A DNA stretch of 64,000 nt from a virus: positions 1-64,000 of the IMG/VR virus record IMGVR_UViG_3300036770_004511; one strand, written 5' to 3'. The position numbers and the translations under genes are program-made. Of the stretch, positions 3,920 to 56,289 are shown piece after piece (position 1 is the stretch's first letter; the number at the start of each line of letters is the position of its first letter). The notes under the pieces were generated by a model that was not told where the DNA came from, ran no database searches, and worked only from the letters and a program-made list of their open reading frames with translations.

Positions 3920-4522
3920 CTACAAGATTAGTTCTGTGAGCTCCATGTTATCACCAATTTTGCCCACAGGAAAAGTGTTGAAACTCAAACTAATTCTTGT
4001 AACCGAATCTGCAGCCACGCTTTGAACCATGTGTTCAAGGTGACTGGGAAACATAATTAACTGACCTTCAACGCTGTCAAACCACCAACTTTCACTGTTA
4101 AACATATTCCAGTTGTCGGTTTTAAATTTAATCTGTTGGTATCCTGAACGATAAAAATAAATTTTATCTTGTCCGGGATTAGTCTGTACATAAAACACGC
4201 CGCTGACTATGCTGTTTGGGTGTGCGTGTTTGTGATGATACTGCCCGGGTGTAGTAAAATTCCCCCAGCTTTGTGTGATTCTTAGTTTAAGATCTGTACT
4301 GGGCTGATAAATTTCTCGAAAATATTCGTTGGCTGATTCTAAGAAAAAAGTTTTTAAATCTTTTAATTTCTTTTTTTCTACTATGTAATTGTCTTCTGTG
4401 CTGGTATTACCCATATTGGATCTTTGCGGTTGACTGGTAATAAAATCTAATTCGGCTTTGGTAATTTTTCGATCTAGTGTAAAAAATGCCACCGGCGTAG
4501 GAAAAAGTTGATTGATTTGCAT
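3920..4522 (-). CDS. 2OG-Fe(II) oxygenase-like protein (2OG-FeII_Oxy_5 / TIGR02466 type)
   Basis: The product is 200 aa. The core matches the small phage family of 2-oxoglutarate/Fe(II) dioxygenases: a His-rich strand YHHKHAHPNSIVSGVFYV (His97, His99, His101), then FPSHLEHMVQS with the distal His164, then TRISLSFN with Arg176, the expected 2-oxoglutarate carboxylate ligand. These enzymes couple decarboxylation of 2-oxoglutarate to hydroxylation of a protein, nucleic acid or small molecule. The substrate is unknown. The gene lies inside the fibre cluster next to collagen-like genes, so fibre hydroxylation is a reasonable idea, but members also occur in aquatic phages elsewhere. The fold assignment is fairly secure; the substrate is speculation. 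Confidence 0.8.
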   Translation of the reverse strand: MQINQLFPTPVAFFTLDRKITKAELDFITSQPQRSNMGNTSTEDNYIVEKKKLKDLKTFFLESANEYFREIYQPSTDLKLRITQSWGNFTTPGQYHHKHAHPNSIVSGVFYVQTNPGQDKIYFYRSGYQQIKFKTDNWNMFNSESWWFDSVEGQLIMFPSHLEHMVQSVAADSVTRISLSFNTFPVGKIGDNMELTELIL

Positions 4523-20167: not shown

Positions 20168-23100
20168 TTATAGGTTACCGGTATTTGTTGAGGGCCAACT
20201 ACGACCGGCTCCCCAAATAATTCTTACGATTCCGGAAGCGCCATTACCGCCGCTATTACCACCTCCACCACCACCCCCACCATAATTGCCTCCAGGACCT
20301 GCCGCATCACCTGGATGATAACTTATTCCGGCAGTGCCAGCAGCACCTCCACTTCCACCACCGCCACCACCACCTGATGCTACGCCTGCTGTGCCATTGG
20401 CGCCTTGGCCTAATTCGCCGACTCCGCCACCGCCACCAGAAGTAGGCGTAGAACTACCAGCAGCTCCACCAGCAGCTCCACCGCCACCACCGCCAGAACC
20501 CGCAGTGCCATTGGCCTGATTCAGACCTCCTGCGCCGCCGGTTCCGGTATAACCACCTGCACCACCTGCGCCACCACTTTGGAAAGTTGCACCACTATGA
20601 TTATTACCTGGGCCGCCATTGCCGCCGCCATCACCTGTATAAGATCCGCCGCCTCCCCCTGCATTATTGCCTGCACCACCACCACCGTTTCCACTAACAG
20701 TACCTGCACTAACGAAATAACTCTGTCCTCCGTCGGCGGCCGGCCCAGAACCGCCCCGTCCTCGTTGTGCTCCGCCGGCACCAACAACTATAGTATAACT
20801 TTGGCCTGCAACAACCGGAATATTATTCTTCCAGCCTAAACCTCCGCCCCCACCACCTGAACTACCACTGTACCCGTTATGTCCTCCCCAACCGCCTGTA
20901 CCTCCCCCACCGCCCCCGACACAGAGCACGTGAACGCTACTGACTCCTGCAGGAGCTACCCAAGTGTAGGTCCCTGCTGTTGTATACTCAATTTGACCAG
21001 TGGCCGGAGCCGGTGGAATCGGAGTAGGTGTCGGAGTAGGAGTAGGTATTGGAGTTGGGGTTGGAATAGGAGTAGGAATAGGTGCAGAAGTTGTAACAAC
21101 AAAATATCCGGCGCTGGTAAATGTATGCAAGGTATTACCATTGTGGGTGCTCACTGAACCACCGGTAGCGAGCTGTGTAGTTCCCGGATATTTGAAAATT
21201 ACAACTCCAGCTGCCCCGCCTGCGCCTTGACCTCCGCCTCCATTTCCGTAACTTTGATTGGTATAATTAAAAATAGACGCTACACCAGTGGGCACAGTTG
21301 CGCTACTAGACGAACTACCGGCATAAGTTGCTGAGCCTGTTCCAGTAGCATAATTGGCACCGCCATTGGCATTAGGTCCATTTATACCTCCTCCTACACC
21401 GCCATTTAATCCACCACCGCCGCCTCCAGCTCCGCCTCCGTCGCCGCCTCCGAAATCAGCTCCGGTACCGCCGGTCATACTGCCCGAACTTCCGTTTGGC
21501 TGATTCCCTCCAGGTAACCCTGCATAGTTGTCGGCGTTACCTTCTCCTCCGCCGCCTCCGCCTCCGCCTCCGGCGGCAACTGCTAGGTAACTGCCAGAGA
21601 AAAATACTCCGGACCATCCGCCGCCTGACCCACCTGCTCCAGAAAAACCGCTGCTGCCTGATCTTCCACTGGCACCGCCACCATTGGCTCCGCCCGGATT
21701 ACTGTAATTTTGTGACTCGCCTGAATTTGTTATTCCGCCCCCACCAATGCTGACTGTAACATTAGAACCCGAAATTAATGTAGCCAATGAATAGGCCGCT
21801 CCGGCTCCTCCTCCGGCTGCGCCTCCTCCGCTGCTGTTATCTCTAGCGCCACCAGCACCACCGGCGCCAACTGCTAGAATCTCAACATCTAAACTACTAG
21901 GAGGAATTGGAGTCGGCGTTGGAATTGGCGTCGGCGTAGGTGTTGGAGTAGGAGTTGGTATTGGAGTCGGCGTTGGAATAGGTGTAGGTATTGGAACAGG
22001 CACCGGCGGTATGGGTGTAGGTGTCGGGGTCGGTGTAGGTATGGGTGTAGGTGTAGGGGTCGGTGTAGGTATGGGAGTAGGTGTAGGAATCGGTGTAGGT
22101 ATGGGAGTAGGTGTAGGAATCGGTGTAGGTATGGGAGTAGGTGTAGGAATCGGTGTAGGAACTTCAGCATAGCGTATACCATTGGGTTTTACTGCACTCG
22201 TACCGTCGGCATTATAAACAAAAAAGTGATATGACCCTATATTTTTAGCAGGACTTGTAAACTGAAATGCAGTTGGTGTTAGATTTGCACTCACACATTC
22301 GATATCATCAACATAGGCTAACAGATTTGGAGCAAATCCTGTACCTTGCACAGTAATAGTCTGTCCTCCAGCATTACTGGCAAAATTAAATCCACCAGGA
22401 TAAACAAGATTAGTTATTTTTACTGCTTGCCCAATCGCTTGTCCGCCTACTGTGCTACCAACTGGAAGTTGAACTGCCGGCCCTGTGCTAGTTATTACAG
22501 CACTGCCTAGTATAATGCTGCTTCCACTTAAGTATAAATCGCGCCAGCGTCTTGAGCTAGAACCTAAATCATAAGCAACATTTGTGTTAGGAACTAAACT
22601 TGCGTTAATTGCAGTATTTGGATTTAAATTGCTAAGATTAGTATTGGCTCCTATTGAAGCAATACCAACTGCTTTACTGATTATCTCTACCCATTGAGTG
22701 CTGTCGCCGTCATTGAGCAGCACAAGTTCTACCATGTTATCCGTGTCAACCCAGCGATCACCGACATTGGCCCCTACGGGTACAGTATTACCAAAGAATA
22801 CTTGTCCAGGACCAGTGGCTCCTGTAGCTCCAGTGGCACCACCAGGACTGCCAGGGAAACCTGTAGCCCCTTGCGGTCCTGTTGCTCCACTGGTTGTACT
22901 GGCACTTTGAACAATTATTTCACTATCTACTGTAGGAGCAGTGTTAAACAGTATCCACTGACTGTTAGCAGTAAAATTAATATTAGGTGTTTGATAAATT
23001 CCATCAACAAAAGCAATAAGTTGATTGGTATTCGCTATGTTACTCTGCAGATCAAAGTCTGTTTGTGTGCCAGTACCAGTAAATGTTCTAGTAAACGCAC

Positions 23101-23644
23101 TTACCGCACCAGCAACGGTTACATTACCAGCTGGACCTTGTGGGCCAGTGGCACCAGTTGAACCTATGTCACCAGCTGCCCCAGGGAGACCAGCTGTTCC
23201 AGTAGCTCCTGTAGCACCTGTGGCTCCTGCTCCAGTGGCACCAGTTGCACCCACATCCCCTGGTGTACCAGGATTTCCTGGAGTTCCTGCTACTCCTGTA
23301 GCACCTGTGGTACCTGCGCCGGTGGCACCAGTGGCTCCAATTGGTCCTTCGGGCCCTGTGGAGCCTATTGGGCCTGCGGGCCCTGTAGATCCTTGTACGC
23401 CTGTGGCACCTGGAGGTCCTGCAATGCCAGTGCTACCAATTGGACCTTGAGGGCCGGTAGCACCTGTGCTACCAATTGGACCAGTGGCACCTCCGGGACT
23501 GCCAGGAATACCCGTAGCACCTGTGCTACCAGTAGCTCCTTGGAACAGAATAGGTGCCCAACGTTCCCCATCCCAGCGCCAACTATTTGTGTTGTAGCTG
23601 TAGGTTTGACCTAAAACTGGATTTGAGGGAAATAATAAAGGCAT
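20168..23644 (-). CDS. Large FPSNP-type adhesin with collagen, Pro-Thr spacers and two glycine-rich domains
   Basis: The product is 1158 aa. In order: FPSNP module ([18 protein letters not shown]), collagen-like repeats (about 35-200), one copy of the [16 protein letters not shown] module (about 185-255), more collagen, a GDRWVDTDN module, a [16 protein letters not shown] module (about 350-410), an IPT/TIG-like domain (about 415-490), a Pro-Thr-Ile spacer (about 493-581), a glycine-rich domain (about 590-850), a second Pro-Thr spacer, and a final glycine-rich domain ending [14 protein letters not shown]. It is the most complete example of module stacking in the locus. Probable function is host recognition at the end of a long fibre. 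Confidence 0.85.
21902..22160 (-). repeat. Long Pro-Thr/Pro-Ile tandem repeat in fibre gene
   Basis: About 85 codons of PTPIPTPTP-type repeat in the gene at 20168-23644; the DNA shows near-perfect units of GTAGGTGTAGGAATCGGT on the plus strand. A second, shorter tract lies at about 21005-21095. Slippage or recombination would change spacer length without breaking the frame when multiples of three are gained or lost. Confidence 0.8.
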
Positions 23645-23664: not shown

Positions 23665-23672
23665 TATTTACC
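23665..23672 (-). promoter_or_regulatory. Late-promoter-like GGTAAATA before the 1158-aa adhesin
   Basis: The minus strand reads GGTAAATACTT at the stop codon of the protease gene, 21 bp upstream of the ATG at 23644. It matches the TAAATAC core of T4 late promoters but not the first bases. Confidence 0.4.
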
Positions 23673-25329
23673 CGTATCTGCGTATCTTGTTTCTAGGCCA
23701 AGTACGTCCATTTGCAGGTCTCACTTTAAAATTCTTTTTAGGAAAAACATTTCCATTGACTGGTCTTTCGTTTTTATAAACTGCATACTTGTTAGGTCCT
23801 CCGTAGAGTAAATTATACGAAAGATAATTACTAGCACCGTAGGCAGTACTGAATGCTCCATCGTCTAATATACCCGAATTAGCGTAGGTAGTGATGTAGG
23901 TCAAAGCCTGTGCTGAGGTTAGATTAGGATAAGTTTCTAAAGCACAAGCAATTAATCCGCAGACCTGTGGCGAAGCCATACTGGTTCCACCTTTAATTGA
24001 TTTGTAAAAACCAGAGTTTCTACTGTCTGCAACACCTGCAACTTGATCGGCACTAGTAACACCACTGCCAGCAGCAAAAATATCTGTTCTTGGACCAGCA
24101 TTGCTATAGTCAGCCTTGCGTTCTGCTATAGTACTGTCAATTGCACTTACATGAATGACCCCGGTAGCAGCACCAGGACTAGGACCACGCATGTAATAAT
24201 AGTTAGAACCTAACTTTAAATAGTTGTTGTAATCAACGCCGCCTTCTCTATCATTGTACATGAAATAGTTTCCGGCGGCACCAACTAGTATAATTCCATC
24301 ATTGATACAATCTGCCATGTCTGCGTCAAGACTTCCATCCCTTACATAAAAGACCATTGTGGTTCCTGAGTCAGGACTAGCTACTAAATCAAAGTTTATC
24401 CTGTCTGTAACAGTCCAACCACCGCCGGGTTTGGTATAGACTACACCCTGGTAACCGATTTCTGTGATATTTTGTAATACAAGACTACTACTAAATCCAA
24501 AACTCATATTACAAATCGTAGGATTTTTACGGCCTGTAGCTGGATTAATAGGTTTATTAGCGTGCCAGACTCTTATGTAATTGAATAAGTCGTAGGTGTA
24601 ATTGGCATAACCCGAAGAATTAGCTGTACCACCAGCATAAGGACTAATATTATAGATATTAGCATCTCTTGCCCATCCACAAGTACTGCCGCAGGCGATA
24701 CCAGCCACGTGATTTCCGTGACCGTTATTGGCTTCTTGTCCTGAGATAAAGTCGTAGACATAGGTTCCTGCTGCTGTTCCTCTGACCTGTGTATTGTACT
24801 GAAACCAATTAAACTGATTTAATCTAGTTGGACCTGTGCCATCTTGCTTAGTACTCCATTCCGGATGTCCTGGTACACAATGACCGTCTACAATAACTAC
24901 ATCCACATTCTTACCTGTGTTAGTTAAATTGATAGTTCCCGATACTACAGCAGTCCCATCGCTACCCCAGGTACTACGTTTAACCCCTTCGTAGCCTCTG
25001 AGAAGTCCCCAATTTACGTAGGATCCATTGGCAGTACCACCTTTGGCAAAAACGCTGCCTGTCTGATAACCTTCCATGGGCTGTATTGTGTGTCCTAGAT
25101 CACGATAGTGTCTGTGAATAGTTTCTACACGTGGATCTTGAGCGAGTTGAGTTACTTCTTCGTCGGTTAAATAATAATGTGTACCGCGACTCATTGGTCT
25201 ACGATAAGCACATTCTACTGTACGATCTGGGACACTGTCTGACCCAAATCTACTTTCCATTTCATCATAGAATCGGTCTAGGTCTTCGCCCTGTCTCAAT
25301 ACTACTATATACTCGCGTTCTTCGCTCAT
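23668..25329 (-). CDS. Subtilisin-like serine protease (family S8) with I9-like propeptide
   Basis: The product is 553 aa, with AGAGGA before the ATG. The S8 catalytic triad is visible: Asp148 (VDVVIVDGH), His204 ([10 protein letters not shown]) and Ser450 ([12 protein letters not shown]), plus the oxyanion Asn354 (VGAAGNYF). Residues about 5-80 (EYIVVLRQG, then [19 protein letters not shown]) look like an inhibitor I9 propeptide, so the enzyme is probably made as a zymogen and self-activated. No signal peptide is present. It lies between fibre genes with 2 nt to the upstream gene, so it is co-transcribed with virion proteins. It may process fibres or, as a virion part, digest host surface proteins; the target is unknown. 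Confidence 0.9.
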
Positions 25330-25330
25330 A

Positions 25331-26149
25331 TTAATCCTCTGTCTTTAATAGAGTAAGAGTTACAGTAATTGCAGCACTACCGCCGCTTAAATTTGTAACT
25401 GCCACTGGAATTGTAGTTGTAACTGGATTTTCATCATTGAAACCTAATACAGCCGGAGCCAGAACTATAGTCTGAGGTGAAGCATTTGTAATAACTTCGG
25501 TAACAACACCGGTATCAGGTGTAGGATCTGTGCCTTGTGCGCGACTGCTATCAGCTGTTCTTGCTGCTGCACTGGTATACAACCTGATCCAGGCTGCATG
25601 AGTGCTGGTAATTTTATAAAGATTATAGCCTTTAAATCCAGCAATATCAATGTTGGCTGTTGTATTATTTGCTATGCCGCTAGTTGTAGCATTTGTAGTG
25701 CTTCTAGTCCATATAGTGCCCGGTGTGCCTGGTGCACCTGCTGAACCAGTGGCTCCCGGACTGCCTGGATCGCCGGTAGGGCCTGCTGCACCCATTGGTT
25801 GAACCCAGTAGTCTGTGGTTCCGTCATTGTAATAAACAAAAATTTCACCACTGTCACTGTTGAACCAAAAGCTACCCACGCTAGGACTAACAGGGCTAGT
25901 GTTACTGATAGTTACAGATGTGCTGCTTCCGTTACCGCCGGTTCCCGGTGATCCCGGAGGTCCAGCTGGTCCGGTAGCACCAGTTGCTCCTATTCCTCCT
26001 GGTGATCCAGGAGCTCCACCAGTGATATTCCCTACCACTGTGGTCAGTGCTGAATATACTATGTTACTACTAAGCAAATTTTCAGTGGTTAAAATCTGCA
26101 CATTACTGGCAGAATCTAATCCTTTAGGGTTAAACTTTTTTATAGCCAT
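25331..26149 (-). CDS. Collagen-containing virion protein with beta C-terminal domain
   Basis: The product is 272 aa: an N-terminal segment (MAIKKFNPKGLDSASNVQIL), collagen-like repeats ([18 protein letters not shown]), an LW-D type module (SVGSFWFNSDSGEIFVYY), a second collagen stretch, and a C-terminal domain of about 120 residues (GYNLYKITSTHAAWIRLYT ...) typical of small beta-rich proteins of cyanophage fibres. GAAGGTGT precedes the ATG. The coding sequence abuts the protease gene to its left and the giant collagen fibre to its right, each with a 1-2 nt gap. It is probably a fibre or a connector of the giant fibre. Confidence 0.8.
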   Translation of the reverse strand: MAIKKFNPKGLDSASNVQILTTENLLSSNIVYSALTTVVGNITGGAPGSPGGIGATGATGPAGPPGSPGTGGNGSSTSVTISNTSPVSPSVGSFWFNSDSGEIFVYYNDGTTDYWVQPMGAAGPTGDPGSPGATGSAGAPGTPGTIWTRSTTNATTSGIANNTTANIDIAGFKGYNLYKITSTHAAWIRLYTSAAARTADSSRAQGTDPTPDTGVVTEVITNASPQTIVLAPAVLGFNDENPVTTTIPVAVTNLSGGSAAITVTLTLLKTED

Positions 26150-26150
26150 T

Positions 26151-29100
26151 TTACACCTTCACATAAGTTTTCTGTAACTTTACTACATTCCCGCTGCCTG
26201 CACCTGTGCCTAATAATCTGACTTGACCGCTTGATATATCTGTTGAAAAGGTCATTAATGCTGCTGCTCCTGTGTACACTGTGGCATAAGTAACCAATTG
26301 GGCCGTGGTTCCGTTGTGCACTATCATGGCTTCAGTGGCTTGATACTCTGTAGAATTGCTGATACTGATCACATATTTGGCGGTTCTAATATTAGTTGTT
26401 CCAAATTGATCCAAAGCAATTGCTGAAGTATTTACTTGAATACCTGTAGGATCTGCCGTAATAGGATCAGTGCCTAATTGATTACTAAAACCTTGTACTA
26501 CAATATCTGCGTTAGCATCAGGAACACCCGCAAAACTTAGTAGATTATCAGCAATAGTAAAATCTATGTCAGGTATTTGATAAACACTGTCAACAAAAAC
26601 CACAACACTCCTACTAGAAACCAAACTAGTAGATAAAGAATAATTACTAGCTACACCGTTTCCAGTGAATCGATCCACAAAACCTGTGGTTAATATAACA
26701 TTCCCAATGTTACCGGCAGTAGCAGTCACAGTAATTGTTACATTTGAACCTGATGTAGTGGCTTCTACCGCCGAACCAACAAAATTCAAACTGCTTATAC
26801 TGCCAGCTACCAATGTTCCTTCATCGTAAACAGTAATATTAGCTGAAGTTCCAGCCGGCCCCGGTGCTCCGGTAGCGCCAGTGGATCCTATACCGGTGGC
26901 TCCTGTGGCACCTTCTGTACCAGGAGTACCCGGTGTCCCGGCTGAGCCTGATGATCCTGTGGCTCCGACAGGGCCAGTAGCCCCTGTACTGCCTTGTGGC
27001 CCTGCTATACCTGTGGCTCCTCCTGGTGTTCCTGGTGCTCCAGTGGCGCCTTGTGGGCCTGTAGCACCATAGGTATTGGTACTGCTTTGTACAATAATTT
27101 CGCTGTTTGTAACAGGAGCACTAGTAAATATAATCCACGAACTGTTGCTGGTAAAATTTGTACCAGGAATTTGATATATTCCATCAACAAAAGCAATTAG
27201 CTGATTAGTATTAGCTACATTAGCAGCAAGATCAAAAGCTACTTCTGCGCCTGTGCCAACAAATGTTCTTGTAAATGACTCAACTGGGCTGGCATTGTTT
27301 ACTCCCGGAGTTCCTGGGGGGCCAATCGGGCCTGTACTACCAGTAGCTCCTGCTACACCAGGCGTGCCAACTGAACCTGTTGCCCCAGTACTTCCTACTG
27401 TGCCCGGAGAACCCGGAGAACCCGGAGAACCTGTTACGCCTGTGGCACCTGTGGCGCCCGGGCCGCCTGCAGTTCCTGGAGTGCCTGGGGTTCCCGCTGC
27501 ACCACTTGCTCCCACTGGACCAGTGGCACCAGTAGCTCCTGCTGTACCAGCTGAGCCAGGGTTGCCAGGGTTGCCGGCAGGACCCGTTGCACCGGTAGCC
27601 CCATTTAATCCAGCTCCACCAATAAATGGTGTTCCGTTACTGTAAAAATATTGACTAGCATATACTGCTACATTAGCTAAAAAGTTATTAGCTCTGATAT
27701 TACCTTCGGTGTCTATGCCTCCGGCTACAATAAAATCGTTAGCAGTAAACAATGTACTACTGCCACCAACTTCAATCCAACCATTGGCCAGGTACACAGC
27801 TAGTTTACCATTGTCACTGTCTAGCCATAAGTCCCCTTCTTGTGGGTTCAACGGTGCTGTCGCGCTGACTGCTACCTGTGCTCCTCCAGTAGCATTACCA
27901 CCACTGGCAGCAATTAGCGTACCACTATGTTGTACTGTGATTTCACTGTTGGCAACAGGAGGATTATAAAAACTTATATAAGTGCTGTTGGCACTAAAAT
28001 TCACACCTGGTATTTGATAGATACCGTCAATGTGAATTAGTAAGCTATTTTGACCAGCTATGTTTCCCGAAAGGACATAGTTTACATTGGTTCCATCAGC
28101 AGTAATATTCTGGCTAAACGGCCAGTACCAGCGACTTTCAAGATCAATAACCGGTGTAGTATTTTGTATTATAATTTCTGCATTAGCAGCCGGAGCACCA
28201 ACAAATGTAACATAGTCAGCGTTAGCTGTAAAATTAATACCAGGAAGTTGATATATACCATCAACATGCACCACCAAACTATTACCACTGAAAGTGTTAC
28301 TAGTCAGTGGATAATTAGTCTGTGCCCCAGTCCCTATACTTTGTTGAGTAAATGGTTGGAATCTTGCATCGTAAAAACTGCCCGGGTCACCTTTTATACC
28401 AGTAGCGCCTGTGGCACCTGCGCCTGTGGCTCCTGTTGCACCTATAGGACCATTGGCTCCGTCAGGACCGGCCGGTCCTTGTATACCAGTGGCACCTGTT
28501 GCACCACCGGGATCTCCTGGGCTGCCCGTAGGTCCTTGTATACCAGTGGCACCTGTTGCACCACCTGGGTCTCCTGTGTCACCTTTTTCACCTGCTATAC
28601 CAGTGGCGCCGCGTGGACCAGTAGCGCCCGTTGATCCTGGGCCCCCGGGACCTCCTGCAGGACCTGTGGCTCCTGTGGCACCGCCGGGACTACCCGGACT
28701 TCCTGGATCCCCCGGTGTACCCGAAGGACCTGTGGCTCCTGTGGCGCCCGATCCTCCTGGACTTCCTGGACTTCCTGGTTCACCAGGTATACCTGCTGGG
28801 CCTGTTGCTCCGCCAGGGTCTCCTGGAACACCAGCTGGGCCAGAAGCTCCTGTAGCTCCAGTGGCGCCTCCGGGATCTCCTTGATCCCCTTTAGGTCCAG
28901 TTGCGCCTGTGGATCCATCTATACCATCAGTGCCGTCGGCACCACTTGGGCCTGTTGCGCCTGTTGCACCTGTGGCTCCCAAATCACCTGGTGTACCAAC
29001 TTCGCCCGGTTCACCCGGAGCACCGTCTGGTCCTGTTGCGCCTGTTGCACCGCCCGGATCGCCAGGTTCTCCTGCCACACCAGTTGCGCCTGTTGCACCA

Positions 29101-32100
29101 CCGGGATCGCCGGTATCGCCTTTTGGTCCGGTAGCACCGGTAGCTCCACTCGCACCAATACCAGTTGCACCTTGGCTACCAGTAGCTCCCGGAGGTCCTT
29201 GGATACCAGTTGCACCCCCAGGTCCTGTTGCGCCTGTGGATCCAATCTCTCCATCGATACCAGTGGCACCGCGTGGTCCCGTGGCACCAGTAACACCTGT
29301 TGCGCCAATACCTGTTGCGCCTGTAGCACCATATGGTCCAGTGGCTCCGGTGCTGCCTGTTTGTCCTGTGTCGCCCTTGGCACCAGTTAAACCAATTGAG
29401 CCAGTAGCACCTGTGGATCCAATATTGCCTGTGATACCAGTAGCGCCTGTGGCACCAGGAAATCCTATATTTCCTTGAGCACCCGGAACTGCTGTACTAA
29501 TATCTAACCAGAATGAATCAAATTGATTATTGACCCAAACATACAGTATATCATTGTCTGAGTTATACCATAATGAACCAGTGACTGGGTTGATTGGGGC
29601 TGTAGAACTAACTGTAATTTCTGTAGGTCCAGTAGCACCTTGTATACCAGTCGCGCCTGTGGCACCAACGCCTGTAGCTCCTGTTGCACCTGTATCACCC
29701 TGCGGCCCAGTTGCACCTTGCGCTCCAGTGGCTCCTGTTGCACCCGACGGATCACCCGGGTCACCTTTAGCACCAGTAGCTCCAGTTGCTCCAGAATCGC
29801 CCGGAGTTCCTGCCGTGCCCGGGTCTCCTGGAGTGCCACCAGGACCGGTAGCGCCAGTTGCGCCACCACCGCCAATGAAGGGCACACCATTGGCATACAA
29901 GAACGTTCCTGCCCTAACACTAGTGAATACAGCGTTCTCTACTGTACTAAATGTTATGCTTTGATATGGTACTGCGTTAGCGTTACTGGTTATAACAATG
30001 TTATTTCCAGAGCGTATAGTAACATGGTCTAGCCCAACTGCTACTAACTGTTCACTGTTTTCTACTTCCCAGTATTTGAAAGTAGAATTCATAGCAACTA
30101 AAACATTACCGTTGCCTCTATCTCGTACTTCAAATCCCGATTCTTCATCAAATAACAAACTAGAAACTGTAGATACTGTAACATTAGGTTGTAAATTACC
30201 TATGTGCAGTGTACCAACAGTAAGAAATGTTGGTCCTGTGGCACCTGTAGCGCCACCAGGGTCACCCTGTGGTCCTGTGGCTCCTGTACTACCTGTAAAT
30301 CCTGATGCACCAGTTGCACCATCTGGGCCTGCTGGACCAATTGGGCCTACTGGCCCTGTGCTACCAGTAGCACCATTTACACCAGGAGTGCCCGGTAATC
30401 CGCTTGCGCCTGTGGCACCATCATTGCCCTGCGAACCAGGTGCGCCAGCTGGGCCCGTTGCACCCGTGGCACCATTGACTCCGGGTGTACCTGGAATACC
30501 CGATGCACCTGTGGCACCTAATAGTCCTTCCCCTGGCGGTCCAGCAATACCTGTGGCGCCAGTGGCACCCATTCCAGCATATTCACCAGGTAGACCTTGT
30601 GGACCAGTGGCTCCTGTGTTACCTGTGTCACCCGGTGGCCCTTGTATACCAGTTGCACCAGTGGCTCCATCTACACCGTCGGTGCCTGGCAGCCCTGATG
30701 CTCCAGTGGCCCCTGTACTACCTAAATTACCAATTGGACCTTGTATACCAGTTGCACCTGTGGCTCCAGTGATACCCGGTGTACCTGGTAGTCCAGTAGC
30801 ACCTTGATCTCCATCTACACCGCTAGGACCAACCGGCCCGGGTAGTCCTGTAGCACCTGTAGCACCATCTGCACCATTGCGTCCTGGTAATCCCGATGCT
30901 CCAGTAGCCCCTGTGCTACCTAAATCTCCAATTGGCCCTTGTATACCAGTAGCACCACTAGCACCTGTTACACCCGGTGTACCCGGTAAACCAGTGGCTC
31001 CTTGTTCTCCATCTTCGCCTCGTGGACCGACTGGTCCCGGTAATCCTGTAGCACCGGTGGCACCTTGGCCTGCGAACTCTCCTGGTAAACCTTGTGGACC
31101 AGTTGCTCCTGTGTCACCTTTATCCCCCGGAGGGCCGGCTATACCAGTAGCACCTGTAGCACCGTTTACCCCTGGAGTACCCGGTAATCCGCTTGCTCCT
31201 TGATCTCCAGTCTCGCCACGTGGTCCCACTGGCCCTTGTATACCAGTTGCGCCTGTAGCGCCATCAATACCAGGTAATCCTTGTAGACCAGACGCTCCTT
31301 GCTCGCCGGTATCACCTTTTGGTCCCACTGGGCCCGAAATACCTGTGGCTCCTGTAGCTCCTGCTGTGCCCGGGGCACCAGGAATACCACTAGCGCCTGT
31401 ATCCCCTGTTTCACCTTGTGGGCCCACTGGCCCTTGTATACCAGTGGCACCGGTCGCTCCATCAATACCTGCTATGCCCTGTAGACCACTAGCGCCAGTG
31501 GCACCTTGTTCGCCTGCTGGGCCCACTGGCCCAGCTAATCCAGTTGCACCTGTAGATCCTACGGTACCAGCTGTACCCGGTAATCCTGTAGCTCCTTGTT
31601 CGCCAGTTTCACCACGTGGACCCACTGGACCTTGTATACCAGTCGCGCCTGTTGATCCATCAATCCCCGGCAATCCAGTTAAACCGGTGGCCCCTTGTTC
31701 GCCTGTTTCTCCGCGCGGCCCTACTGGTCCTTGTATACCAGTAGCGCCAGTTGATCCATCTAATCCTGCTGTGCCTTGAAAACCAGTGGCACCTTGTTCC
31801 CCTGTATCACCTTTGGCTCCCACAGGTCCTTGTATACCAGTTGCACCTGTACTACCTGTTATTCCTGGAGTTCCTGCTAACCCAGTAGCTCCTTGTTCCC
31901 CATCTATACCACGTGGTCCCACTGGCCCTTGTATACCAGTTGCGCCAGTAGCTCCGTCCAATCCTGCTGTGCCTTGTAGCCCGGTGGCACCCTGTTCTCC
32001 GGTATCACCTTTTGGACCTACTGGGCCCGAGATACCAGTGGCTCCTGTAGCACCATCTATTCCTGCTGTACCTTGTAACCCACTTGCGCCTGTAGCACCC

Positions 32101-33497
32101 ACCGAGCCTGCAGGGCCCACGGGCCCAGGTAAACCACTTGCACCAGTGGCGCCATCTATACCTGCTGTACCTGCAGGACCAGTTGCTCCAGTAGAACCCT
32201 GTATACCAGAGGGACCAATCGGTCCTGCTATACCTGTGGCACCTACTGTGCCCGGTGTTCCTGGAATTCCAAATCCGGTCGCACCTTGTTCTCCAGTGTC
32301 TCCTTTTGGTCCTACTGGGCCTGGCAGTCCGGTGGCACCAGTGGCTCCTACAGGACCTGTAGCCCCGGGTTCTCCTATACCAGTAGCACCTTGTTGCCCG
32401 GGTAGTCCAGGCGCACCTGCTATACCAGTGGCACCAGTTGAACCCAAATCTCCGGATGGCCCAGGAGTTCCTGCTATACCTGGTAATCCAGTGGCACCAA
32501 CAGGACCAGCTATACCTTGAACACCAGCTGGACCGGTAGCACCTTGCGTTCCTGCAGGACCAACAGGACCAGCTACACCTGTAGCACCTGTAGCGCCTGT
32601 AATGCCCGGAACACCTTGACTACCGGTTGCTCCAACAGGGCCTGCAGGACCAGCCGGCCCAAGAGCACCGGTAGCTCCAATTGATCCTGTGGCTCCAATT
32701 ACACCCTGCGGGCCTTGAGTGCCTGCGGTTCCTGGCGCACCAGTGGCCCCAGTTAATCCTGGTGCTCCAGTGGCACCTACACCGGTAAATGCCGCGCCGT
32801 TAGCATAAAATATACTGTCTGCGTAGATACTGCCGCCAGCATAGATATTTCCACCTACACCTAATCCGCCGTCGACAACTAATGCCCCAGTAGTAGGGCT
32901 AGTACTTACTGTGATATTACTTAGATATAAACTACCAGCTGATACTGCCGCAGCAGTGCCGGTCACTTGTCCACTGTCAACCGTGGCATTGGTTAAAAAT
33001 ATCAGTTCACCGGTGCTGTTATCCCAACCAATGAATGCACCCCGATCTGCACCATCCCTATAATAGTGCATGAGCAGACCAAGATCTTGTCCATCATCGA
33101 CAACAAGATCGGCTCCGCCCGGGCCTGTATGAATTTCAAATACACTAGTAGTTACTGTTTCATTACTGGTATTAACAGTGGTGGTATTGCCTAAAACCAC
33201 TAAATTACCGGTTACTACAACATCAACAGCAGCTAGATTGTTTAATGTACCAACCTGTGTGATTTGAGGCTGGCTTGGTGTCATTATGGTACCATAAATG
33301 GTACTTGAGGCTATATTTCCTGCATGTAAATTGCCTGTGATGCCTACGCCACCTTGAACACGCAATGTACCTGTATCTACATTGATACTGGCAATATTAC
33401 CTGTTAAGGTTAGTGGAGTGCCTAGTACAGTGTGAGTAAGGTTACTGGTGCTGTCAAAATTACTCAGTACAACCGGCTGTCGCAGGTACCTAATCAT
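26151..33497 (-). CDS. Giant collagen-like tail fibre
   Basis: The product is 2448 aa, the second largest here. About 240 N-terminal residues resemble fibre bases with repeats such as VVVTGNLVVLGNTTTVNTSN and GALVVDGGLGVGGNIYA. Then follow several long Gly-X-Y blocks (the largest encoded at about 30240-32780, another at about 28380-29490) with the period [16 protein letters not shown], interrupted by beta modules: FYANGAAF/FLYANGVPFIG, LW-D modules, and four copies of a 60-70 residue module containing VDGIYQIPG.NF...SEIIVQ. It ends VRLLGTGAGSGNVVKLQKTYVKV. Collagen triple helices give a long semi-rigid trimer. It may be a long side fibre. Confidence 0.85.
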   Translation of the reverse strand: MIRYLRQPVVLSNFDSTSNLTHTVLGTPLTLTGNIASINVDTGTLRVQGGVGITGNLHAGNIASSTIYGTIMTPSQPQITQVGTLNNLAAVDVVVTGNLVVLGNTTTVNTSNETVTTSVFEIHTGPGGADLVVDDGQDLGLLMHYYRDGADRGAFIGWDNSTGELIFLTNATVDSGQVTGTAAAVSAGSLYLSNITVSTSPTTGALVVDGGLGVGGNIYAGGSIYADSIFYANGAAFTGVGATGAPGLTGATGAPGTAGTQGPQGVIGATGSIGATGALGPAGPAGPVGATGSQGVPGITGATGATGVAGPVGPAGTQGATGPAGVQGIAGPVGATGLPGIAGTPGPSGDLGSTGATGIAGAPGLPGQQGATGIGEPGATGPVGATGATGLPGPVGPKGDTGEQGATGFGIPGTPGTVGATGIAGPIGPSGIQGSTGATGPAGTAGIDGATGASGLPGPVGPAGSVGATGASGLQGTAGIDGATGATGISGPVGPKGDTGEQGATGLQGTAGLDGATGATGIQGPVGPRGIDGEQGATGLAGTPGITGSTGATGIQGPVGAKGDTGEQGATGFQGTAGLDGSTGATGIQGPVGPRGETGEQGATGLTGLPGIDGSTGATGIQGPVGPRGETGEQGATGLPGTAGTVGSTGATGLAGPVGPAGEQGATGASGLQGIAGIDGATGATGIQGPVGPQGETGDTGASGIPGAPGTAGATGATGISGPVGPKGDTGEQGASGLQGLPGIDGATGATGIQGPVGPRGETGDQGASGLPGTPGVNGATGATGIAGPPGDKGDTGATGPQGLPGEFAGQGATGATGLPGPVGPRGEDGEQGATGLPGTPGVTGASGATGIQGPIGDLGSTGATGASGLPGRNGADGATGATGLPGPVGPSGVDGDQGATGLPGTPGITGATGATGIQGPIGNLGSTGATGASGLPGTDGVDGATGATGIQGPPGDTGNTGATGPQGLPGEYAGMGATGATGIAGPPGEGLLGATGASGIPGTPGVNGATGATGPAGAPGSQGNDGATGASGLPGTPGVNGATGSTGPVGPIGPAGPDGATGASGFTGSTGATGPQGDPGGATGATGPTFLTVGTLHIGNLQPNVTVSTVSSLLFDEESGFEVRDRGNGNVLVAMNSTFKYWEVENSEQLVAVGLDHVTIRSGNNIVITSNANAVPYQSITFSTVENAVFTSVRAGTFLYANGVPFIGGGGATGATGPGGTPGDPGTAGTPGDSGATGATGAKGDPGDPSGATGATGAQGATGPQGDTGATGATGVGATGATGIQGATGPTEITVSSTAPINPVTGSLWYNSDNDILYVWVNNQFDSFWLDISTAVPGAQGNIGFPGATGATGITGNIGSTGATGSIGLTGAKGDTGQTGSTGATGPYGATGATGIGATGVTGATGPRGATGIDGEIGSTGATGPGGATGIQGPPGATGSQGATGIGASGATGATGPKGDTGDPGGATGATGVAGEPGDPGGATGATGPDGAPGEPGEVGTPGDLGATGATGATGPSGADGTDGIDGSTGATGPKGDQGDPGGATGATGASGPAGVPGDPGGATGPAGIPGEPGSPGSPGGSGATGATGPSGTPGDPGSPGSPGGATGATGPAGGPGGPGSTGATGPRGATGIAGEKGDTGDPGGATGATGIQGPTGSPGDPGGATGATGIQGPAGPDGANGPIGATGATGAGATGATGIKGDPGSFYDARFQPFTQQSIGTGAQTNYPLTSNTFSGNSLVVHVDGIYQLPGINFTANADYVTFVGAPAANAEIIIQNTTPVIDLESRWYWPFSQNITADGTNVNYVLSGNIAGQNSLLIHIDGIYQIPGVNFSANSTYISFYNPPVANSEITVQHSGTLIAASGGNATGGAQVAVSATAPLNPQEGDLWLDSDNGKLAVYLANGWIEVGGSSTLFTANDFIVAGGIDTEGNIRANNFLANVAVYASQYFYSNGTPFIGGAGLNGATGATGPAGNPGNPGSAGTAGATGATGPVGASGAAGTPGTPGTAGGPGATGATGVTGSPGSPGSPGTVGSTGATGSVGTPGVAGATGSTGPIGPPGTPGVNNASPVESFTRTFVGTGAEVAFDLAANVANTNQLIAFVDGIYQIPGTNFTSNSSWIIFTSAPVTNSEIIVQSSTNTYGATGPQGATGAPGTPGGATGIAGPQGSTGATGPVGATGSSGSAGTPGTPGTEGATGATGIGSTGATGAPGPAGTSANITVYDEGTLVAGSISSLNFVGSAVEATTSGSNVTITVTATAGNIGNVILTTGFVDRFTGNGVASNYSLSTSLVSSRSVVVFVDSVYQIPDIDFTIADNLLSFAGVPDANADIVVQGFSNQLGTDPITADPTGIQVNTSAIALDQFGTTNIRTAKYVISISNSTEYQATEAMIVHNGTTAQLVTYATVYTGAAALMTFSTDISSGQVRLLGTGAGSGNVVKLQKTYVKV
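30240..32780 (-). repeat. Main Gly-X-Y collagen-coding block
   Basis: About 845 codons of Gly-X-Y with GATGATG, GPVGPRG and GEQGATG units in the giant fibre gene. The DNA is highly repetitive, which makes this stretch a likely site of unequal recombination and of assembly error. Confidence 0.85.
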
Positions 33498-33885: not shown

Positions 33886-33893
33886 TATTTAGC
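33886..33893 (-). promoter_or_regulatory. Late-promoter-like GCTAAATA
   Basis: The minus strand reads GCTAAATACATT in the 65-bp gap between genes, 27 bp from the ATG at 33859. It keeps the TAAATA core and would transcribe the small beta protein and the giant collagen fibre. Confidence 0.5.
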
Positions 33894-55650: not shown

Positions 55651-56289
55651 CTATAGTTTTAAGTCTCTAATTAGACGAACAACTTCGTCCTTAAGAAACT
55701 TTTGCACTTTTTGATTTTCCCTAACGTCATCTGCCATTTCTAATACACGATGTCCATGACGCATGTTCATTAGACCTTCGTAAATGGCTTTTGGATACGC
55801 ATGCGGAGCACTTGGCTGCGCTACTATATCTACTGTGACGATTTCAAATTCACTGACGTGCCCAGTGGATTCGCTGACATTGCCGCTACCGCGGCTTGAA
55901 ACACCCAACTTAACACCACTTTCTAACATGGTCTTAACGAGTTGCCCCATGGGTGTTGGCAGAATCTTCAGTTTGCCGTGGCCGGCTGGACCATCCATCC
56001 ACATTTGTTCAATCATGTGGCTGACACGATCTAGGTTGATTTTAAGATCATCGGGATGATCTACTTCACCTAATACTGAATATCCGCTCTTGATCTGTTC
56101 ATTGATTGTAGTAACTGCTTTAGCAATTTCGTTAACAGGGTAAACACGCTGGTTAGCATTCTTTACCCCGCCCTCAATGAATATACCTTTCATGTACAGG
56201 TTTTTACCGGAGCCGTCACTGTTATCCTCATGCAAGACTTGCATCTTGGCATGATCAAATGTGAGCTGTTCTCTTAGGTAATGTGCCAT
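55651..56289 (-). CDS. gp21: Prohead core protease gp21
   Basis: The product is 212 aa. The segments GIFIEGGVKNANQRVYPV, LGEVDHPDD (His78), GVKLGVSSRGSGNV (Ser131/132) and EIVTVDIVAQPSAPHA (Asp154) match T4-type gp21, a serine protease of MEROPS family S80 with a His-Ser-Asp type centre related to herpesvirus assemblin. It is made in the prohead, cleaves scaffold and capsid subunits after LxE/IxE, and then digests itself. An AAGGGC sits in a poor SD position before the start. The gene lies 7 nt after the acidic core protein and 12 nt before gp22. Confidence 0.95.
   Translation of the reverse strand: MAHYLREQLTFDHAKMQVLHEDNSDGSGKNLYMKGIFIEGGVKNANQRVYPVNEIAKAVTTINEQIKSGYSVLGEVDHPDDLKINLDRVSHMIEQMWMDGPAGHGKLKILPTPMGQLVKTMLESGVKLGVSSRGSGNVSESTGHVSEFEIVTVDIVAQPSAPHAYPKAIYEGLMNMRHGHRVLEMADDVRENQKVQKFLKDEVVRLIRDLKL

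Follow-up and report, generated by a model that had tools for sequence, protein, structure and literature searches.

A subtilisin-like serine protease of 553 residues is encoded inside the fibre operon of a T4-like phage, and its relatives in other viruses are tied to a single type of fibre end: 97 of 106 distinct relatives directly follow a gene ending in a conserved domain of about 130 aa, here called A. When A is not followed by the protease in T4-like phages it is followed by a gene of a second family, B, and a short C-terminal tail is shared by the A-linked proteases and the small genes (family C) found behind B. Our tentative interpretation of this arrangement, held with somewhat less than even confidence, is a swappable fibre-tip system in which A, on variable shafts, takes either the subtilisin or B by way of the shared tail, the subtilisin acting as a virion-borne "protein depolymerase" that would cut a host surface protein at adsorption.

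The protease gene and its family

The window (the whole stretch of 64,000 nucleotides that was analyzed) belongs to a T4-like phage and contains genes for gp23, gp20 and an S77 prohead protease. The last is a separate gene at 55651-56289, so that head maturation has its own enzyme. The features considered below are listed in Table 1.

Table 1. Coordinates in the window of the protease gene, its parts and its neighbours
Feature	Position	Strand	Remarks
S8 subtilisin-like protease, 553 aa	23668..25329	minus	PHROG 9158, E=6.2e-98
I9-like propeptide region, residues 1-76 (end approximate)	25102..25329	minus	Inhibitor_I9 match below cut-off; conserved across relatives
Peptidase_S8 catalytic domain, residues 139-498 (Asp148, His204, Asn354, Ser450)	23836..24915	minus	Pfam match; tetrad conserved
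C-terminal tail motif R537-P-A-N-G541-R-T-W544-P545-R546	23692..23721	minus	Proposed docking peptide
Partner fibre, collagen-like shaft and C-terminal tip domain A, 272 aa	25331..26149	minus	
Tip domain A (PHROG 15343), residues about 143-272 of partner fibre	25334..25723	minus	
2448-aa gene, same gene run	26151..33497	minus	Ends 1 bp before partner fibre
1158-aa tail-fibre-like protein	20168..23644	minus	23 bp downstream of protease
CTAAATA, T4-type late promoter-like	33886..33892	minus	26 bp upstream of first gene of the run; weak

The protease ORF starts with ATG. Its product matches the Pfam Peptidase_S8 profile (PF00082) over nearly its full length, positions 1-286 of 288, with E=1.1e-20 and a score of 74.5 bits that is well clear of the curated cut-off of 21.8. 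The catalytic Asp, His and Ser and the oxyanion Asn occur in the correct S8 order and in the expected motifs, including GGTSMASP, and the protease is thus complete, as the preliminary description had claimed. PF00082 was the sole Pfam family matched, with no sign of Peptidase_S77, and neither Pfam nor PHROGs gave a match to tail-fibre assembly chaperone or gp38-type adhesin families. Profile matches in the PDB were to keratinase, proteinase K and aqualysin-1, with E values down to 6e-23. The PHROG 9158 match spans residues 4-549 and positions 5-573 of the 696 in the profile, the unmatched end of which would correspond to a C-terminal extension of longer members. This was the only S8 match in the whole virus record of 67,671 bases, and the enzyme it encodes is apparently active.

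The N terminus shows no hydrophobic signal peptide, in agreement with the earlier view that the protease lacks a secretion signal. That view also included a propeptide, for which the outcome was mixed: when the first 82 residues were compared with Inhibitor_I9 (PF05922), positions 2-75 of 82 were matched with E=0.011, but the 16.8 bits obtained fall under the curated cut-off of 21.2. The same resemblance was found in 12 of 25 relatives (best E=0.0022), and a profile search with the propeptide returned chance matches only. An I9-like propeptide is a plausible identity for this region.

Members of the family, PHROG 9158, were found in Kyanoviridae isolates and in hundreds of IMG/VR contigs. The isolates belong to the T4-like phages that infect marine Synechococcus and Prochlorococcus, and their proteases are 25-40% identical to the one in the window; the nearest environmental contigs reach 64%. 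Profile searching gave at least 548 confirmed contig matches, and with hundreds of homologues a chance origin of the ORF is excluded. Only 8 genome contigs were matched, and the titles of nearly all of them indicate a metagenome-assembled genome or bin; the family therefore looks viral, and a cellular origin was rejected, the 8 matches being probably phage sequence in bins. Of 99 relatives that were aligned, 98 have the complete Asp-His-Asn-Ser tetrad, and on this count catalysis is under selection. The exception is the S-CAM1 protease (L007:8987-11239), which has Glu, masked by the aligner, at the position of the catalytic Asp and lies on a very long branch while keeping the A pairing; it is possibly inactive or altered. 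It also has a cupredoxin-like domain, recognized by eye, inserted within it. Domains of this appearance, likewise recognized by eye, are C-terminal in the proteases of S-H9-1, ACG-2014i and AG-345-P14 (loci L009:7998-10001, L008:7998-10067 and L015:7983-10151), and the C-terminal cupredoxin-like domains contain the residues Cys-x(2)-His-x(3)-Met.

The description of the protease as tightly spaced within a fibre operon was confirmed, with 1 bp between it and the collagen-like fibre gene 5' to it and 23 bp to the gene that follows. The gene order is observed directly, and it suggests that the fibre and protease genes are transcribed together. CTAAATA has a single minus-strand match in the window, the one upstream of this run. 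The related sequence ATAAATA was seen on the minus strand at 1008, 3912, 20141, 48877 and 51748 and at other positions, largely in short intergenic gaps. These sites resemble T4-type late promoters, although the evidence is weak and the AT-richness of the gaps may account for the matches.

Pairing with tip domain A and the shared tail

Among 89 tallied loci, all except two have the A gene and the protease gene -4 to +4 bp apart. The A-bearing partners vary in length between about 140 and 1700 aa (contig ends cut some of them short), and have a variable, often collagen-like shaft and a constant C-terminal domain. The preliminary description had proposed a search of related phages for this gene beside fibre genes, and the adjacency to an A-tipped gene was evident in nearly all relatives. 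Since most of the paired loci were first found via the protease, a second search of IMG/VR contigs was done from A alone. Among 52 distinct copies of A with a readable next gene, this gene was the protease in 38, B in 14 and anything else in none, with gaps of -4 to +6 bp; the search used a closer alignment subset containing A domains from both protease-linked and B-linked fibres, so that 38:14 is not a census. In T4-like isolates A likewise precedes the protease or B, and S-H9-1, ACG-2014i and AG-345-P14 each carry both pairs. In the siphovirus types PSS2 and S-CRES1, whose genomes have no S8 match, A has other neighbours.

Family B proteins (610-930 aa) directly follow A-tipped fibres, for example at L128:5386-7680, L009:4575-6875, L008:3175-5502, L048:708-2675, L129:5371-7194 and L132:5365-8151. 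They share a conserved PCPYYLPDDF stretch, and most end in GIAFCARTT or similar. B had no Pfam or PDB match and no recognizable enzyme domain; profile searches of the PDB with A and with B gave nothing credible. Phage Sf-CH1b has an A-tipped fibre with B as partner and no S8 match in its genome. Synechococcus WH8102 is given as the host of both Sf-CH1b and Sf-FR1, the latter with S8, and the protease is therefore not obligatory for that host. S-BM3 was considered as a further genome free of S8 and rejected, since searching it in six frames revealed part of an S8 domain match; its protein S-BM3_00202, labelled "peptidase S8", gave only YHYH and Ig domains in hmmscan.

A second feature common to these operons is a tail of the form RPxxGxxYPR. 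In the alignment of the proteases its columns are highly conserved (R537 0.89, G541 0.89, P545 0.95, R546 0.94). The motif R-x(1-5)-G-x-x-[YFW]-P-R lies at the end of A-linked proteases or further in, behind the catalytic domain. A total of 98 among 3410 C-termini have it in its strict form, where shuffling gives 3.0, and most of the 98 are A-linked proteases. A relaxed form ([YFWH]PR) occurs in 118 of the 119 A-linked proteases and in none of the 7 relatives without A. This agreement among the proteases was rejected as independent evidence, because the protease tree shows a single joint change, a loss or gain, of A and the tail. The independent support therefore comes from the A-B-C operons and from PSS2. 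In the A-B operons B itself has no tail, and the small gene behind it bears one in all 12 contig cases that could be read; the same tail is on the gene after B in the isolates S-SCSM1, Sf-CH1b, S-BM3, S-H9-1 and ACG-2014i. These small genes make up family C (about 77-120 aa, for example L128:7683-7916, L048:2678-2920, L009:6878-7111 and L132:8154-8516). In PSS2 the A protein is followed, three genes on, by a tail-bearing protein. From this co-occurrence we infer that the tail may be a connector, either to the A tip or to a shared neighbour.

Possible roles of the protease

We consider the chances about even that the protease is borne on the virion, docked on the fibre tip, and cuts a host-surface protein, its location, docking and substrate all being deduced from the arrangements described here. 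The particle would then carry a two-part device, consisting of a collagen-like shaft with tip A and a subtilisin, synthesized in an inhibited form, mounted on or near that tip. The neighbouring genes for fibre and protease would be expressed late in infection. By analogy with its family, the I9-like N-terminal domain would aid folding in the cytoplasm and block activity until it is cleaved off. The tail, given its co-occurrence with A, would anchor the enzyme to the fibre tip or to a neighbouring tail part, and at adsorption the particle-bound enzyme would cleave a host-surface protein, much as tailspike depolymerases act on polysaccharide.

Virion data for a relative come from phage S-SCSM1, for which mass spectrometry of virions reported 45 phage proteins (PMC9602691); by our count, 48 genes in its GenBank record are labelled as virion protein. 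Among these are SSCSM1_228 (S8 and Laminin_G domains), SSCSM1_231 (A) and SSCSM1_232 (B). SSCSM1_228 is a distant relative of the protease, from the clade that has neither A nor the tail. Several structural genes do not bear the label, and the non-structural ones named in PMC9602691 do, and hence it probably reflects detection by mass spectrometry, although the two counts differ. Among the relatives, fusions to Laminin_G, Ig and esterase domains occur. In S-TIM54 (L014:6435-12872) a single chain of 2145 aa has an I9-like start, a carboxylesterase-like domain, an S8 domain and Ig domains. The suggestion in the preliminary description that the enzyme is carried on the virion and cuts the host surface thus gains indirect support from the paired tip domain, the shared tail, the lectin-like and Ig fusions and the virion label on a distant relative.

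The same description offered fibre maturation as the other role. On this reading the protease would trim its partner or neighbouring fibres at assembly and then be lost or remain as a passenger. The position of the gene within a run of fibre genes is as this predicts, as is a precursor-type protease made in the cytoplasm, and phage proteases commonly process virion proteins. Conserved peptidases of jumbo phages have been argued to do so (PMC7824862). However, A-tipped fibres occur in Sf-CH1b, with B, and in PSS2 and S-CRES1, with other neighbours, all in genomes without an S8 match, which argues that A needs no such enzyme to mature; moreover, the single chains in which the enzyme is joined to Laminin_G and Ig domains point to a resident part. 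A maturation role is weakened by these findings and seems to us unlikely. The protein could also be a binding protein that cuts only itself and serves as a fibre adhesin or cap like T2-type gp38, any other proteolysis being incidental. Its alternation at one slot with B, in which no enzyme domain is recognizable, suggests that what the occupants of this slot have in common may be binding and not cutting, and S-CAM1 retains the pairing despite its altered catalytic residue. The full tetrad is nevertheless kept in nearly all members, although pure self-cleavage predicts the same, and we judge this reading to be quite improbable. Synthesis in the cytoplasm without a signal peptide would also suit a late intracellular protease that degrades host proteins or aids lysis and lies beside the fibres by chance. 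Strict coupling to one tip domain, a tail found as well on fibre-operon genes that encode no protease, and fusions to virion-type domains would all be unexpected for such an effector, which we regard as very unlikely indeed.

Relation to known systems and other features of the window

The order of Asp, His, oxyanion Asn and Ser and the surrounding motifs are common to this protease and to S8 subtilases of the proteinase K, subtilisin BPN' and aqualysin type, as is probably an I9-like N-terminal region. The protease differs from them in being virus-encoded, in lacking a signal peptide, in its long insertions and RPxxGxxYPR tail, and in its genetic tie to a fibre. The T4 gp21 prohead protease (S77) is also a phage serine protease but is of a different family. 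In T4-type gp37-gp38 adhesin pairs and in tail-fibre assembly (Tfa) pairs, a gene lies right behind the fibre gene and alternative partners are found at one slot. The slot arrangement here is alike, although no sequence relation to these pairs was found in Pfam or PHROGs and the partner is a protease. The enzymes known to aid entry of tailed phages cut sugars or peptidoglycan. Tailspike depolymerases (PMC6966330, PMC6116005) resemble the proposed use, as virion-borne enzymes that open the host surface, but the protease would cut protein instead of polysaccharide and is a separate chain outside the spike. The words protease, proteinase, proteolytic and subtilisin are absent from the review PMC6116005.

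S8 genes in cyanophages are already known, both from GenBank annotation and from the literature. The genes of S-CREM1, S-H38, S-WAM2, S-H9-1 and Sf-FR1 that bear the annotation "subtilisin-like serine protease" or "peptidase" belong to the same PHROG 9158 family and lie in the same order behind an A-tipped gene; the PHROG 9158 entry itself has no function assigned. An S8 peptidase, T4-GC518, was noted in the T4-like cyanophages P-HM1 and P-HM2 as gene presence only (Sullivan et al. 2010, PMC3037559), and neither phage appeared in the set of records that the window protease matched. The literature searched, which was covered in part, gave no account of the A-protease module, the B alternative, the tail or virion subtilisins in phages. 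If the proposal is true, the fibre-linked protease, present in hundreds of contigs of aquatic viruses, would represent a new type of entry enzyme, in viruses of very abundant cyanobacteria. The module would also single out families B and C as counterparts in function, or partners, of the protease, and it yields directly testable predictions concerning protein in virions, binding of the tail to the tip and the effect of an active-site mutant.

The minus strand from 1 to 20134 of the window carries an array of fibre genes with a common N-terminal motif like MPxxFPSNPxxNxTYxxNGxTWxW, many of them with Gly-rich C-terminal domains. The array gives the impression of a set of exchangeable fibres. Within this array, at 3920-4522 (minus), lies a gene for a 2OG-Fe(II) oxygenase (PF13759, E=5.7e-19), which could hydroxylate collagen-like fibres.
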